From the NCBI GenBank assembly GCA_012840125.1, contig DULZ01000057.1, forward strand, positions 1 to 39,956: 39,956 bases of DNA, in the 5' to 3' direction. Origin of the DNA: Clostridia bacterium. Its GTDB lineage: Bacteria > Bacillota > DULZ01. The notes under the pieces are model-generated. The model was given only the letters and a program-made list of their open reading frames with translations, did not search any database and was not told the DNA's origin. A program made the position numbers and the translations under genes. Shown here piece by piece: positions 5,849 to 25,312 of this stretch; within the stretch, counting starts at the first letter, position 1, and every line of letters starts with the position of its first letter.

Positions 5849-7084
5849 ATGTTTAGTTTTCTGCTGACGGAAGAACAGCAAGCCCTGCAAAAAGAAGTGC
5901 ATGATTTTGTCCAATCGGTGGACAAACAGTTAATCCTGGACATGGACGCGGACAAGGTACAGTACCCCAAGGAATTTCTCCAAGAAGCCGGGCGCCGGAA
6001 CCTGCTGGGCCTTCGTTTCCCCAAGGAATACGGGGGCCGGGGTTTGGGTTGGACTTCAGAAGTGACGGCTTTGGAAGATATCGGCATGCTGGGATCCGCC
6101 CTGGCCTGCCTGTATTCCCTCCCTTCCATCGTAGGTGAAGCCATTTACAAGTTCGGCACTGAGGAGCAAAAACAAAAGTACCTGGCGGAAACCCTGGCCG
6201 GCAAGAAGTTTACCGCGGAAGGGCTCACGGAACCCCGGGGCGGTTCAGACTTTTTCGGCGCCACCACCACGGCACGCCGGGAAGGGGATTATTACATTCT
6301 CAACGGGCAAAAACGCTTCATCGTGGGAGCGGAAGGGGCCGACTACTTCTTTGTCTATGCCAAGACCAATCCGGAGGGATCTCCCAAGGACTCCCTCAGT
6401 GCCTTCATCGTGGACCGGGGCCCCGGGGTGGAAGTACACCACGTGTACGGCCTCATGGGCAGCCGGGGCGGCGGTACCGGCCGGCTCGTCTTCCGGGAGG
6501 CCAAGGTTCCCGCTTCCAACCTGGTGGGACAGGAAAACGGCGCCGGTGCCATCTTCTACCAAATGATGATACCGGAAAGGCTTACCAGCGCCGCCGGGGT
6601 GCTGGGCTTGGCCAAAGCAGCCCTGGACGTCGCCGTCAAGTACAGCACCAAGCGCAAAGCTTTCGGGCGCAAGATCAAAGATTTCCAAGCCGTCAGTTTC
6701 AAAATCGCCGAAAGCATTACCCAGTTGGATGCAGCCCGTGCTCTGGTCTATACCACAGCCCAAGCCATTGATAAGGGCGTACCGGCCGCCCTCCAGCGCA
6801 GGTTGGTGTCTCAAGCCAAGAAATTCGCCACCGAGACCGCCTGGCAGGTGGTAAACCATGCCATGCAAGTACTGGGCGGCATCGGTTATACCAACGTCTA
6901 CCCCATTGAGCGCTACCTGAGAGATGCCCGCTTGCCGATGATCTGGACCGGTACCAATGAGATTATGAGCTTGATCATCCAGCACGAATACTTCAAAGAA
7001 GTGGCCGGTCCGGGAACCTTGAGCCGTGATGTGGAAATGGACGCTCCCGAGGCGGAAAACCTGGCGGAAAAAATCTATGAATAG
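5849..7084 (+). CDS. Acyl-CoA dehydrogenase, IVD/LCAD-type active site
   Basis: This FAD enzyme oxidises acyl-CoA to 2-enoyl-CoA and passes electrons to an electron-transfer flavoprotein. The 411-aa protein has the normal three-domain order. It shows TEPRGGSDF (flavin/substrate region), [16 protein letters not shown] and [22 protein letters not shown]. The glutamate used by medium-chain enzymes (YEGT motif) is replaced by Thr367 in IWTGTNEIM. Glu243 in [11 protein letters not shown] sits where isovaleryl-CoA and long-chain dehydrogenases carry their catalytic base. Substrate is therefore more likely branched or long-chain, but is not proven. AAGGAG eight nt upstream sets ATG 5849. It is followed by an acyl-CoA synthetase 13 nt downstream. 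Confidence 0.93.
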
Positions 7085-19916: not shown

Positions 19917-20795
19917 TTGCCATACGGTCTTGCCCTTAGCGGCGGCTCCTTAAGGGGAGCAGCCCATATCGGCGTTTTGGAAGTGCTGCACGAGGAAAAA
20001 GCAGTGCCGGGCAGCCTGGCCGGCACCAGCGCCGGCAGCATTGTCGGCAGCCTGTATGCTGCCGGCATGACACCGAAGGAGATCGGCGCCATCTTCCGGG
20101 AACTGTATCAAACAGCCTACCGGCCCCAGGAACACATCATTCAACCCCTTGCGATCCATCCCTTAAAGACCAAGCACATCGCCCGGCTGCCCTTACCCAA
20201 AGGACTGCTCAACGCCGATTTTATTGAGATATTCCTGCAGCAGTACATAGGCAGGGCAACTTTTGAAAACCTGGTGAAGCCCTTAGCCATCACCGCCGCT
20301 GACCTTCAAACCGGCGAACTGGTGGTTTTCACTGCCGAACAGCTCATCCCGCCCAAACCCTGGCCGAAGCGGACGGTTTTTGTTCCCCGGGTGCCGGTAG
20401 CCGAGGCTGCCCGGGCCAGTTCCTCCATTCCTGGCATTTTTACCCCCAAAACCATCGGTACCAGGACCCTGGTCGACGGGGGACTGGTGGACAATGTCCC
20501 CGCCGACATCTTGCATTTCCTAGGGGCCGAAACCATCATCGCCGTGGACCTGGGCTTTGGGGTTCATGAAGAAGAGCCTTTAACCAACCTCCTGGAGATC
20601 CTGCTGCAAACTCACGATATTTCCGGCCAGCGCATCGCGGACCTGGTGACGGAAAAATACGCCCACCTGGTGCTGCGGCCCCAGACGGGCAGTGCCGGTT
20701 TGCTGGACTTTCATAAAATACCTGCCTTCATCGAAAAAGGCCGCCAAGCAGCACGAGCTAACTTAGCGGCCATCAAAAGGATGGTCAATCCTTAA
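19917..20795 (+). CDS. Patatin-like phospholipase
   Basis: A serine acyl hydrolase of the RssA/YlbK/patatin kind, probably acting on lipids in the cytoplasm. The oxyanion loop GGSLRGAAHIGVLE is near the N terminus. The nucleophile elbow GTSAGS and the catalytic aspartate motif DGGLVDN complete the Ser-Asp dyad. No signal peptide is seen. An ATG at 19893 has no clear ribosome site. AGAGAGGTGG five nt before TTG 19917 supports that start, giving 292 aa that begin where related proteins begin. Its last 11 bp overlap the end of the convergent Fe-S gene. Confidence 0.85.
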   Translation: MPYGLALSGGSLRGAAHIGVLEVLHEEKAVPGSLAGTSAGSIVGSLYAAGMTPKEIGAIFRELYQTAYRPQEHIIQPLAIHPLKTKHIARLPLPKGLLNADFIEIFLQQYIGRATFENLVKPLAITAADLQTGELVVFTAEQLIPPKPWPKRTVFVPRVPVAEAARASSSIPGIFTPKTIGTRTLVDGGLVDNVPADILHFLGAETIIAVDLGFGVHEEEPLTNLLEILLQTHDISGQRIADLVTEKYAHLVLRPQTGSAGLLDFHKIPAFIEKGRQAARANLAAIKRMVNP

Positions 20796-21717
20796 GGCTT
20801 TCTATTCTGTTCACAATGGCGCGAATGCGCAGCGCTTCTTCCCAGTCCACGGGGACGAATTCCCCGTTTTTCTTCATGAGGGGCTTCCGCACCGGATGAG
20901 AGCTGTACACCAATTCCAGTCCTAAACGACCCTTCAGGCACAGGGGACGTCCCGCCCCGCCGGTCCTGGCTTGAACACCGATGATCTCGCTGCCTTTCTT
21001 GACCAAATCGAATTTGCAGCCGAAATCACAGAAAGTGCAGGTAACTTCGTGCTTGGTGACTTCCCAGGCCCGGGCTTTGCCGGCCAGCTCCTTGGGCATT
21101 AAAGCCCCCACCGGGCAAACCGAGACACAGTTGTGGCAGTAGACGCAATCGGACTCCGCCAGGCTTACATCGAAAGCCGGCGTAACTTTAGTGTTAAAGC
21201 CGCGCCCGGCGAAATCCAGGATATGCATTCCCTTGATTTCACTGCAAGCCCTAATACACCTACCGCACAGGATGCATTTGTTATTATCCCGGATGATATA
21301 CGGGTTGGAGTCGTCGATCTCGTAGTCGTGCCTTTCCCCGTCAAAACCGGACCCGGCCACTTCGTACTCATAGGCATAATCCTGCAAGCGGCAGTCGCCG
21401 CACTTATCACAGGTCAGGCAGTCGAGGGGATGGTTGGCCAGGATAAGCTCCAGGATCATTTTCCGGGCCTCGATGACTTCCGGCGCATGGGTCTCCACCA
21501 CCATGTTCGGGGCGACCTGAGTGACACAAGCTGCCACCAGGTTTCTGGCCCCTTCTACCTTGACTACGCATAAGCGGCATGCACCAAAATCCGATAAAGC
21601 CGGGTGATGGCACAAGGTGGGGATCTCGATGCCTGCTTGCCGGGCTGCTTCCAGAAGGGTCGTGCCCGACTCTACTTCCATGGGCCGCCCGTTTAAGGTA
21701 AATTTGATTTTGGCCAT
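20785..21717 (-). CDS. FdhA/NuoG-type Fe-S subunit without catalytic domain
   Basis: The protein carries only the N-terminal electron-transfer part of an NAD-linked formate dehydrogenase alpha chain (FdhA) or NuoG. The order is a 2Fe-2S domain (C36, C47, C50, C64), a His/Cys 4Fe-4S domain (H96, C100, C103, C109), two 4Fe-4S clusters (C148-C158 and C191-C201), and the Molybdop_Fe4S4 domain (C227, C230, C234, C260). After the LKGRLG at about 261-266 and WEEAL it ends at residue 310, where an intact FdhA would continue for ~550 residues. No catalytic selenocysteine/cysteine or H-cluster motif is present. It may be a dedicated bridging subunit, as HylA is for FdhF2-HylABC, or a truncated remnant. 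ATG 21717 is 14 nt after the HydB-like gene. Confidence 0.85.
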   Translation of the reverse strand: MAKIKFTLNGRPMEVESGTTLLEAARQAGIEIPTLCHHPALSDFGACRLCVVKVEGARNLVAACVTQVAPNMVVETHAPEVIEARKMILELILANHPLDCLTCDKCGDCRLQDYAYEYEVAGSGFDGERHDYEIDDSNPYIIRDNNKCILCGRCIRACSEIKGMHILDFAGRGFNTKVTPAFDVSLAESDCVYCHNCVSVCPVGALMPKELAGKARAWEVTKHEVTCTFCDFGCKFDLVKKGSEIIGVQARTGGAGRPLCLKGRLGLELVYSSHPVRKPLMKKNGEFVPVDWEEALRIRAIVNRIESLKD

Positions 21718-21731
21718 CGGTAACCCTCCTT

Positions 21732-23510
21732 CTAGCCTTTATACACGGCCCCGAACCGGCATACTTCGTAACAAGTGTTACACTTGGTGCACTTATCCAC
21801 ATCGATGACATGCACTTCTTTCAACTGGCCGCTGATAGCGCCGGAGGGGCACTTCTTGGCGCAGCGACCGCAGCCGGTGCATTTCTCCGGATCAATGCGG
21901 TACAGGATGAGATCCTTACAAGCTCCTGCCGGGCAGCGCTTTTCCTTAATATGGGCCTCATATTCATGCCGGAAATAGCGCAAGGTTGTCAACACCGGGT
22001 TCGGAGCCGTCTGCCCTAACCCGCACAGGGAAGTAGCTTTGATGATTTTCCCGAGTTTTTCCAGCTTCTCCAGGTCTTCTTCGGTCCCCTTGCCTTCCAC
22101 GATGCGGGTGAGGATTTCCAGCATCCGCTTGGTACCTTCCCGGCAGGGGGTACACTTACCGCAGGATTCAGCTTGGGTAAAGCGGAGGAAGAACCGGGCC
22201 ACGTCCACCATACAGGTGGTCTCATCCATTACCACCAGGCCGCCCGAACCCATCATGGCCCCGGCTTGGGTCAGGGAATCATAGTCGATGGGCAGGTCCA
22301 GGTGATCTTTGGTCAAGCAGCCACCGGAAGGACCGCCGATCTGGACTGCCTTGAATTCCTTGTCCCCCTGGATGCCGCCGCCGATGTCAAAAATGATCTC
22401 CCGCATGGTAATGCCCATGGGCACTTCCGCCAAACCGGTGTTTTTCAGTTTGCCGGTGAGAGCAAACACTTTAGTTCCCTTACTCTTTTCAGTACCGATG
22501 GAACTGTACCATTGGGCCCCGTTGCGCAGGATATGAGGTACATTGGCGAAAGTTTCCACGTTGTTAATGTTGGTGGGCTTGCCCCATAAGCCCTTCTGGG
22601 CAGGGAAAGGCGGGCGAACTCTAGGCATGCCCCTCTTACCTTCAATGGAAGCAAGGAGAGCCGTTTCTTCACCGCAAACAAACGCCCCGGCACCGGCCTT
22701 AATTTTCAAGTGGAAATTAAAACCGGAACCTAGAATATTGTCGCCTAGGAATCCTCTTTCTTCGGCCTGTTCAATGGCAATCGCCAGCCGCTTGGTGGCT
22801 AACGGGTACTCAGCCCGGACATAAACATAACCTTCATCGGCCCCGATGGCATAGGCCGCAATCAGCATCCCCTCGATGACCGCATGGGGATCCCCTTCCA
22901 GGATGCTCCGGTCCATGAAGGCACCCGGGTCTCCTTCGTCGGCGTTGCAGACCACATACTTCTTATCGCCCTCGGCTTTGTAGGCAAACTCCCACTTCAA
23001 GCCCGTGGGGAAACCTGCGCCGCCGCGGCCCCTCAAGCCCGATTGCTTGACCTCTTCAATGATCTCCATGGGCTTCATGGTCAAGGCCCTCTTAAAGCCC
23101 TCGTATCCGTTGGTGCCGAGATAGTCGTCGATGCTCTCAGGGTTGATGTGCCCGCACCGCTGCAGCACGATCCGCTTTTGCTTGTTGTAGAAAGTAATAT
23201 CGTTATAATGTTTAATCTTTTCCTTGCTGCCCGGATCTGTGTACAAGAGTCTTTCGACGATCTGACCGTTCACCAGGTGGCTTTCCACGACTTCTTCCAC
23301 ATCTTCAGCATCCACCCGGCAATAAAAAACACCTTCCGGCTCCACGATCATGATGGGACCCTGCTCGCAGAAACCGTGGCAGCCTGTAGTCACAATACTA
23401 TAATCATGCACAAGTCCTCGTTTTTCCAATTCTTCCGTCAACTTGGCAGTTAATTTGCGGGACCCGGACGAGACACAGCCGGTACCGGTACAAATTAAAA
23501 TCCGCTTCAT
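21732..23510 (-). CDS. NADH-binding HydB/NuoF-like flavoprotein
   Basis: This is the flavin subunit of an NAD-linked ferredoxin, hydrogenase or formate dehydrogenase complex. The N-terminal ~120 residues form a thioredoxin-like 2Fe-2S domain (CTGTGCVSSG, TTGCHGFC). The NuoF core has GLRGRGGAGFPTGLKW (FMN/NADH) and CGKCTPCREG with a further Cys. The C terminus adds two 4Fe-4S clusters (C544, C547, C550, C554 and C574, C577, C580, C584). This N- and C-terminal extension is the HydB layout of electron-bifurcating enzymes, not plain NuoF. The 592-aa length fits. It follows the NuoE-like gene by 11 nt. Confidence 0.93.
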   Translation of the reverse strand: MKRILICTGTGCVSSGSRKLTAKLTEELEKRGLVHDYSIVTTGCHGFCEQGPIMIVEPEGVFYCRVDAEDVEEVVESHLVNGQIVERLLYTDPGSKEKIKHYNDITFYNKQKRIVLQRCGHINPESIDDYLGTNGYEGFKRALTMKPMEIIEEVKQSGLRGRGGAGFPTGLKWEFAYKAEGDKKYVVCNADEGDPGAFMDRSILEGDPHAVIEGMLIAAYAIGADEGYVYVRAEYPLATKRLAIAIEQAEERGFLGDNILGSGFNFHLKIKAGAGAFVCGEETALLASIEGKRGMPRVRPPFPAQKGLWGKPTNINNVETFANVPHILRNGAQWYSSIGTEKSKGTKVFALTGKLKNTGLAEVPMGITMREIIFDIGGGIQGDKEFKAVQIGGPSGGCLTKDHLDLPIDYDSLTQAGAMMGSGGLVVMDETTCMVDVARFFLRFTQAESCGKCTPCREGTKRMLEILTRIVEGKGTEEDLEKLEKLGKIIKATSLCGLGQTAPNPVLTTLRYFRHEYEAHIKEKRCPAGACKDLILYRIDPEKCTGCGRCAKKCPSGAISGQLKEVHVIDVDKCTKCNTCYEVCRFGAVYKG

Positions 23511-23521
23511 CTCCCCACCCC

Positions 23522-24010
23522 CTACTCGTATTTTGCCAGAATATCGGCAATGGCGTTTTTCGTCAAACGGCCATGGGTATCGTCATCAATCATGATCACC
23601 GGGGCCAGGCCACAAGCTCCAAGGCAGGCCACGGATTCCAGGGTAAACCGCAAATCCTCGGTGGTTTCCCCGTCTTTAATGCCCAGCTGCTCTTGGATCT
23701 CAGCCAGGATTTCTCCCCCGCCGCGCACGTAGCAAGCCGTACCCTGGCAGACCCTGATGGTATGGCGCCCCCTCGGCGTCAAGTTAAACTGGGCATAAAA
23801 AGTAACCACCCCATAAACCTGGCTGATGGGGAGTTTCAGTTCTGCCGCAATCTTCTCCAAGACTTCCCGCGGCAGGTACCCATAGATATCTTGTGCTGCT
23901 TGCAATACAGGAATTAAGGCTCCCTGCTGCCCCCGGTATTTAGCAAAAACTTCTTGCAATTTTTGATCTTTTTCCGTCATTTCCGGCGTGTTGCAACAAC
24001 ACTTGCTCAC
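23522..24010 (-). CDS. HydC/NuoE-like 2Fe-2S subunit
   Basis: A thioredoxin-like 2Fe-2S protein that partners the HydB/NuoF subunit. The cluster cysteines are C88, C93, C129 and C133 (RVCQGTACYVRG and VACLGACG). The helical N-terminal half contains LQAAQDIYGYLPREVLEKIA. The length of 162 aa is typical. The start is GTG 24010 after a GGAGGAGGGAG stretch. A CCC triplet lies at residues 4-6. It is the first gene of the three-gene operon, and the DnaA-box cluster lies upstream of it. Confidence 0.93.
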   Translation of the reverse strand: MSKCCCNTPEMTEKDQKLQEVFAKYRGQQGALIPVLQAAQDIYGYLPREVLEKIAAELKLPISQVYGVVTFYAQFNLTPRGRHTIRVCQGTACYVRGGGEILAEIQEQLGIKDGETTEDLRFTLESVACLGACGLAPVIMIDDDTHGRLTKNAIADILAKYE

Positions 24011-24150: not shown

Positions 24151-24247
24151 TTATCCACAGAATTCAGACTGCACCCACCCTATTATAAACACTTTTATCC
24201 ACATTATCCACAAGAAATATTCCACAAAACAGCCGTTCTGTGGATAA
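24151..24247. promoter_or_regulatory. Cluster of DnaA boxes
   Basis: Four perfect TTATCCACA boxes lie within 97 bp: 24151-24159, 24195-24203 and 24204-24212 on the plus strand (the last two abut exactly) and 24239-24247 on the minus strand. A degenerate TATTCCACA is at 24218-24226. The stretch is AT-rich and noncoding, between the end of tsaD and the nuoE-like gene. From memory, B. subtilis has a DnaA-binding cluster beside gcp (tsaD). No dnaA, dnaN or rnpA is near, so oriC is unlikely. Confidence 0.85.
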
Positions 24248-24250
24248 TTT

Positions 24251-25285
24251 TCATCTCTTGGCCAGTGCTTGCTCCAAGGGCAAATAAGGGACCGCATTCA
24301 AATCCAGCCCGGCGAAATCACCGGCCAGGTAGCGGTAATAAGCGGCACAGGCAATCATGGCCGCATTATCGGTGCAGTAAATAGGACTTGGCCACCTAAC
24401 CTCTATACCGTGGGGCTCGGCGGCGGCAAGGAGCTTCTGCCGCAAGTACCCGTTGGCCGCCACCCCACCCGCCAGGGTGATGACCGGCAGTTTATACTTG
24501 AGGGCGGCCTGCACCGCCTTCCCCACCAGCACTTCCACCACGGCTGCCTGGAAACTGGCGCATACATCCGGGACAGAAATCTCTTCTCCCCGCTGGCGAG
24601 CGTTGTGCAGGTAATTCAGCACCGCCGATTTCAGCCCGCTGAAGCTGAAATCCAGGCTCCCTTCCTCCAGCCAAGCCCTTGGAAAAGCTACGGCAGCCGG
24701 GTTCCCGGCCATGGCCGCCTTTTCAACGGCGGGCCCCCCCGGATAACCTAGGCCCAGGGCCCTGGCAATTTTGTCAAAGGCTTCCCCGGCGGCATCATCC
24801 AAAGTAGCCCCCAGAACCTCAATTTCCTCATGGGACTGCCAGCGGACCAGGCTGGTATGACCGCCTGACACCACCAGGCACAAAGCCGGCAGTTCCAGGT
24901 CCGGGTGCTCCAGCAAATTGGCGTAAATATGCCCCAACAGGTGATGCACCCCGATCAAGGGTTTCTTAATGGCAAATGCCATGGCCTTAGCCTGGGCCAC
25001 CCCCACCAGCAGGGATCCTACCAGACCGGGCCCGTAAGTAACCGCTACCGCATCCAGGTCTTTAAGATTAATCCCGGCCTCTGTTAAGGCTTGATCCACC
25101 ACCGGGATGATCTGCTCCATGTGCTGGCGGGAAGCTATTTCAGGCACCACGCCGCCGAACCGCTGGTGGACTTGGATCTGGGAAGAAATGACGTTGGATA
25201 AAACCCGGCGCCCGCCCTGCAATACCGCTGCCGACGTTTCGTCGCAGCTGGTTTCAATGGCTAGAATCAGAGTTTCGTCGGTCAA
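24251..25285 (-). CDS. tsaD: tRNA t6A threonylcarbamoyltransferase TsaD
   Basis: TsaD transfers the threonylcarbamoyl group to A37 of ANN-decoding tRNAs with TsaB and TsaE. The 344-aa protein begins near [16 protein letters not shown]. It has the metal-binding [12 protein letters not shown] and the ASKHA-fold VSGGHTSLV and [13 protein letters not shown]. The longest frame starts at TTG 25306 but has no ribosome site. TTG 25285 with GGGAG ten nt upstream gives a start aligned with relatives. It is last in the tsaE-tsaB-rimI-tsaD run, with the DnaA boxes just after its stop codon. Confidence 0.95.
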
Positions 25286-25312
25286 TTCGTCTTCAACTCC
25301 CGGCAAAGCTAA

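Follow-up and report, generated by a model that had tools for sequence, protein, structure and literature searches.

The DnaA-box cluster between tsaD and the nuoE-like gene

The window, a 39,956-nucleotide stretch of a Clostridia bacterium genome (GenBank assembly GCA_012840125.1, contig DULZ01000057.1, contig C57 in our numbering), carries the t6A tRNA-modification gene tsaD (gcp) at 24251-25306 on the minus strand (TIGR03723, 446 bits, E 5.8e-134). It is followed on the same strand by a nuoE/HoxE-like gene for an NAD-linked Fe-S subunit (23522-24010), a gene for a nuoF/HydB-like subunit (21732-23510) and a gene for a NuoG/FeFe-hydrogenase-like N-terminal Fe-S protein (20785-21717). The latter, the last gene of the nuoE/nuoF-like operon, encodes only 310 aa, comprises an Fe-S N-terminus with the start of a formate-dehydrogenase-like domain and is possibly truncated. 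The 240-bp gap between tsaD and the nuoE-like gene is noncoding. It contains four exact DnaA boxes, TTATCCACA, at 24151-24159, 24195 and 24204 on the plus strand and at 24239-24247 on the minus strand. The boxes at 24195 and 24204 abut, and a degenerate box, TATTCCACA, is located at 24218-24226 (+). A further weak box, TTATAAACA, begins at 24183, exactly 12 bp before the abutting pair. Together, these three boxes form a core at 24183-24212 (+) with spacings of 12 and 9 bp that points towards the 3' end of tsaD. The same core is present in the family alignment and 3' of tsaD in many families. The exact box at 24151 lies 32 bp before this core, and its aligned position is kept as TTGTCCACA in two relatives of the same family. 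The stretch has an AT content of 63% compared to 45% for the window. The sequence-only reading had reported the four exact boxes, the degenerate one, the abutting pair and the inverted box, and this observation is confirmed.

The cluster is not due to chance. None of 20,000 shuffles of the 240-bp gap contained two boxes. A pattern search of the genome (2.47 Mb, 106 contigs) found 38 exact boxes but only 11 copies of the reversed word. At this rate, about 1.6e-8 spans of such density are expected. Only four other places in the genome, one of them oriC, hold two or more exact boxes within 150 bp, and the cluster at tsaD is the densest group of exact boxes. However, two of the boxes have to be regarded with care: 24218 and 24239 overlap the two arms of a terminator-like stem-loop at the 3' end of tsaD (24221-24244 on the minus strand, 10 pairs, 4-base loop). 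This hairpin is conserved within the family, in an alignment where locus L153 turned out to be the same genome as relative G002. The two boxes may therefore be part of the tsaD terminator instead of DnaA sites, and the inverted one is not generally conserved outside the family. The core and the box at 24151 are located outside the hairpin.

The cluster is not oriC. The genes dnaA, dnaN, recF and gyrB, accompanied by their own boxes, are located on another contig (C41), which, judged from the extent of the contigs, is at least 38 kb away. Three other places in this genome deserve mention. The same 12+9 core is present on contig C20 (C20:28458-28487; positions 6459-6488 of the extracted locus L001) between comFC and a glnH-like ABC operon, about 3 kb upstream of hpf. 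A third abutting pair lies beside a DUF438/PAS-like gene (C40:22002-22099; L002 6003-6100). Two relatives of the same family, G001 and G002, also have three abutting pairs each. Finally, a DnaA-box cluster was found between a yabQ-like gene and divIC (C42:45106-45204; L004 5107-5205). Clusters upstream of divIC are also present in 8 of 30 unselected relatives. In 6 of 30, one box faces two tandem boxes (spacing 12, 11-12), which is the topology of the E. coli DARS core. The same layout occurs in 7 of 52 oriC regions.

Conservation and geometry of the site

To ascertain if relatives carry boxes at the same place, the 3' side of tsaD was examined in one genome per family and subsequently in a phylum-wide sample, in which many genomes are draft or metagenome-assembled. 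Among 104 genomes from 80 Bacillota families, 59 genomes (49 families) have a dense cluster within 1 kb 3' of tsaD and 8 more have one at 1-6 kb. The reversed motif used as control yielded 0. About 40% of the sampled genomes have no cluster at tsaD, so the position is dispensable. In 46 profiled loci, 69 exact boxes fall into the first 250 bp after tsaD and 0-5 into any other bin. Bacilli have the site, too: 15 of 28 loci, control 0. As some of these genomes are also in the first sample, the combined set without duplicates comprises 74 site-bearing regions of 132. Together with a TsaD tree, these data support that the placement has been kept between Bacilli and Clostridia-type lineages. In E. 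coli, no box with at most one mismatch was found around tsaD.

The cluster has a fixed design: TTATnAACA-N3-TTATCCACA-TTATCCACA, with all boxes pointing at tsaD. When distances were determined on unselected loci only, leaving out those chosen by the core motif, same-strand distances of 9, 12 and 21 bp were found in 62, 52 and 52 of 74 clusters, compared to about 9 after jittering the positions. Distances of 42-43 and 54 bp are also raised. Of 407 boxes, 344 lie on the strand opposite tsaD. The strict three-box core is present in 39 of the 74 tsaD clusters and occurs in two orders, 12 then 9 bp (27 loci including the window) and 9 then 12 bp (12 loci). None of 39 oriC clusters has either. The consensus of 29 cores is aAGTTATnAACAGAnTTATCCACATTATCCACAG, a conserved core of about 30 bp with conserved flanking letters.

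An unbiased scan of the genome collection with the core, which was limited to 120 hits, was annotated by tblastn. Of these 120 hits, 33 are located 3' of tsaD and all point at it, 49 lie at comFC-hpf, among them one in Clostridioides difficile upstream of hpf (L158), 38 have other neighbours and none is near dnaA or dnaN. The genome of the window has both sites, as have, among others, Desulfallas sp. Bu1-1 and Sporotomaculum syntrophicum. That hpf is an equally general site was not confirmed: In an unselected sample, only 6 of 30 loci have a cluster within 1.5 kb upstream of hpf. Counting abutting pairs with up to 2 mismatches within about 3.5 kb of hpf raises this number to 13 of 41 (assessed by eye). 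Hence, the second site is real but rarer.

The site is not tied to a particular neighbour. The first gene beyond it belongs to 27 unrelated kinds in 74 loci, 14 of which are convergent, and the nuoE-like gene is found there only in the window's own family. In one genus, the boxes keep near-identical offsets irrespective of whether the site abuts tsaD (genomes G098 and G237), is 2-3 kb away (G212 and G132) or is separated from it by about 20 kb of mobile DNA (G015). The intervening sequences comprise a transposase-like gene, other genes or, in G015, an integrase element with a tyrosine-integrase gene beside the boxes (L113 544-1283). The tsaD 3' gap may be an integration target. The survival of such insertions argues for a chromosomal site in its own right. 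In complete genomes, for which rounded sizes were used, the site is mostly 0.07-0.27 of the genome away from dnaA, with one case at 0.475.

Outside the Bacillota, 5 of 16 tsaD loci of the Aerophobota, a different phylum, carry the core or the abutting pair (L259, L261, L262, L354, L358). Direct transfer of tsaD from Bacillota is not supported as an explanation: Aerophobota TsaD forms one separate clade (100/100, stem 0.65), but presence of the site is patchy even between close relatives, so that these data do not decide on its ancestry.

A putative DnaA assembly site and alternative readings

The interpretation given by the sequence-only reading is partly supported. Its claims that this is a DnaA-box cluster, that it is probably not oriC, that B. 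subtilis has a DnaA-binding cluster beside gcp and that this placement has been kept between Bacilli and Clostridia all hold. By contrast, its proposal that DnaA couples the replication state to redox gene expression is not supported. Furthermore, it missed the weak box at 24183, the directional design with fixed spacing, the second conserved site at comFC-hpf and the overlap of two of its boxes with the terminator-like hairpin.

We favour, with moderate confidence, an ancient extra-origin DnaA-box cluster (DBC) that acts in cis as a chromosomal DnaA assembly or titration site. In this model, DnaA, preferably with ATP, would load on the two strong abutting boxes and the weak box 12 bp away as a directional oligomer. 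By holding DnaA, and by doubling its capacity when the replication fork passes, the site would lower free DnaA and restrain early re-initiation at oriC. It would stay between tsaD and whatever gene follows because the locus lies in the origin-proximal part of the chromosome and is a quiet 3' intergenic gap, not because it regulates a neighbour. Position, geometry, conservation, independence of the downstream gene and distance from oriC are established by the present analysis. DnaA binding and the effect of loss are known only for B. subtilis, where others demonstrated that DnaA binds the gcp site (PMC4447404) and that deletion of all six DBCs causes early initiation, which is partly relieved by one DBC put back at various places (PMC5295017, PMC13220808). 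In contrast, DnaA binding in the organism studied here, the oligomer, the titration step and the function of the site are inferred. Three points speak against this reading: Simple titration would not need such a strict spacing, about 40% of the sampled genomes have no cluster at tsaD, and in B. subtilis no single DBC has a strong effect (PMC5295017).

The strict spacing suggests an ordered oligomer. The strict spacing and direction, which titration does not require, leave room for a tentative alternative, a DnaA-remodelling element that is a functional counterpart of E. coli DARS or datA. Here, the geometry of the core would force contacts between DnaA molecules that change the bound nucleotide by ADP release or ATP hydrolysis. 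This reading is encouraged by a tandem pair of boxes 12 bp apart that the core shares with DARS1 and DARS2, and a 2026 review states that it is unknown whether B. subtilis has such regulators (PMC13220808). However, the third box differs, and DARS prefers ADP-DnaA (PMC5742627), whereas the B. subtilis gcp site prefers ATP-DnaA (PMC4447404). An extension of this view, which is equally unlikely on present evidence, is that the tsaD and comFC-hpf sites belong to one ancient class of DnaA-remodelling sites with a fixed 12+9 tandem core, older than the split of Bacilli and Clostridia and perhaps present in Aerophobota, that serves Gram-positive bacteria as the missing counterpart of DARS/datA.

Regulation of the adjacent operon, or a block of read-through from tsaD, appears unlikely. 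DnaA is a known transcription factor, the site lies 140-240 bp upstream of the nuoE-like start, and a promoter-like match as well as the terminator-like hairpin overlap it. Nevertheless, promoter-like matches are expected by chance (0.9 per shuffle), the downstream genes are of many unrelated kinds and partly convergent, the B. subtilis cluster is located between two converging 3' ends, and one genus keeps the site after insertions between it and tsaD. That the boxes are a by-product of the tsaD terminator or of base composition is very improbable. It is refuted for the core, since the core boxes and the box at 24151 lie outside the hairpin, tandem same-strand boxes do not form one, the reversed-motif control yielded 0 of 104 and none of the 20,000 shuffles held two boxes, but it remains possible for the inverted box. 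Equally improbable is a second or former replication origin, for which only the density of boxes in AT-rich DNA speaks: A canonical oriC neighbourhood with its own boxes exists on C41, the tsaD-site geometry is absent from oriC clusters, and in complete relatives the site lies 0.07-0.48 of the genome from dnaA.

How Gram-positive bacteria without Hda, SeqA, datA or DARS limit DnaA is an open question (PMC13220808). A DnaA-box site with strict geometry that has been kept at the 3' end of one gene across about 60% of the sampled Bacillota families, while its downstream neighbours changed, is strong evidence for a selected function, most likely in replication control. Furthermore, it provides a short sequence rule to find such sites in unstudied genomes.

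Comparison with known DnaA-box clusters

The closest known system is the gcp/ydiF cluster of B. subtilis, one of six extra-oriC DBCs (Okumura 2012, PMC3245932; Smith and Grossman 2015). It has the same position 3' of tsaD (gcp), consists of dense boxes outside oriC and is origin-proximal (about 0.15 of the genome). The region downstream of gcp contains 10 boxes and is among the strongest DnaA-binding regions in vitro, with a Kd of 0.15 uM for ATP-DnaA and a 16-fold ATP preference at 55 nM (PMC4447404). The site in the window matches this group in two respects, several consensus boxes close together outside oriC and the same locus as a B. subtilis DBC. It differs in its neighbour, which is the convergent ydiF in B. 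subtilis. In the papers searched, no report was found that the site is kept beyond B. subtilis or follows a spacing rule, although earlier reports in other papers cannot be excluded.

E. coli DARS1 and DARS2 are likewise extra-origin intergenic clusters with a core of three boxes and a tandem pair 12 bp apart. However, their box I is inverted and located 14 bp from the tandem boxes II and III, whereas the third box in the tsaD core is tandem and abuts at 9 bp. Membership in DARS was rejected based on this geometry. DARS also prefers ADP-DnaA, and DARS2 depends on IHF and Fis. E. coli datA is an extra-origin DnaA-box cluster in an intergenic region, too, and acts to restrain initiation; it needs IHF. 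Bacterial oriC at dnaA/dnaN uses the same 9-mer boxes, but on mixed strands (98 of 228 on one strand), without the 12+9 core in 39 clusters and at a different genome position.
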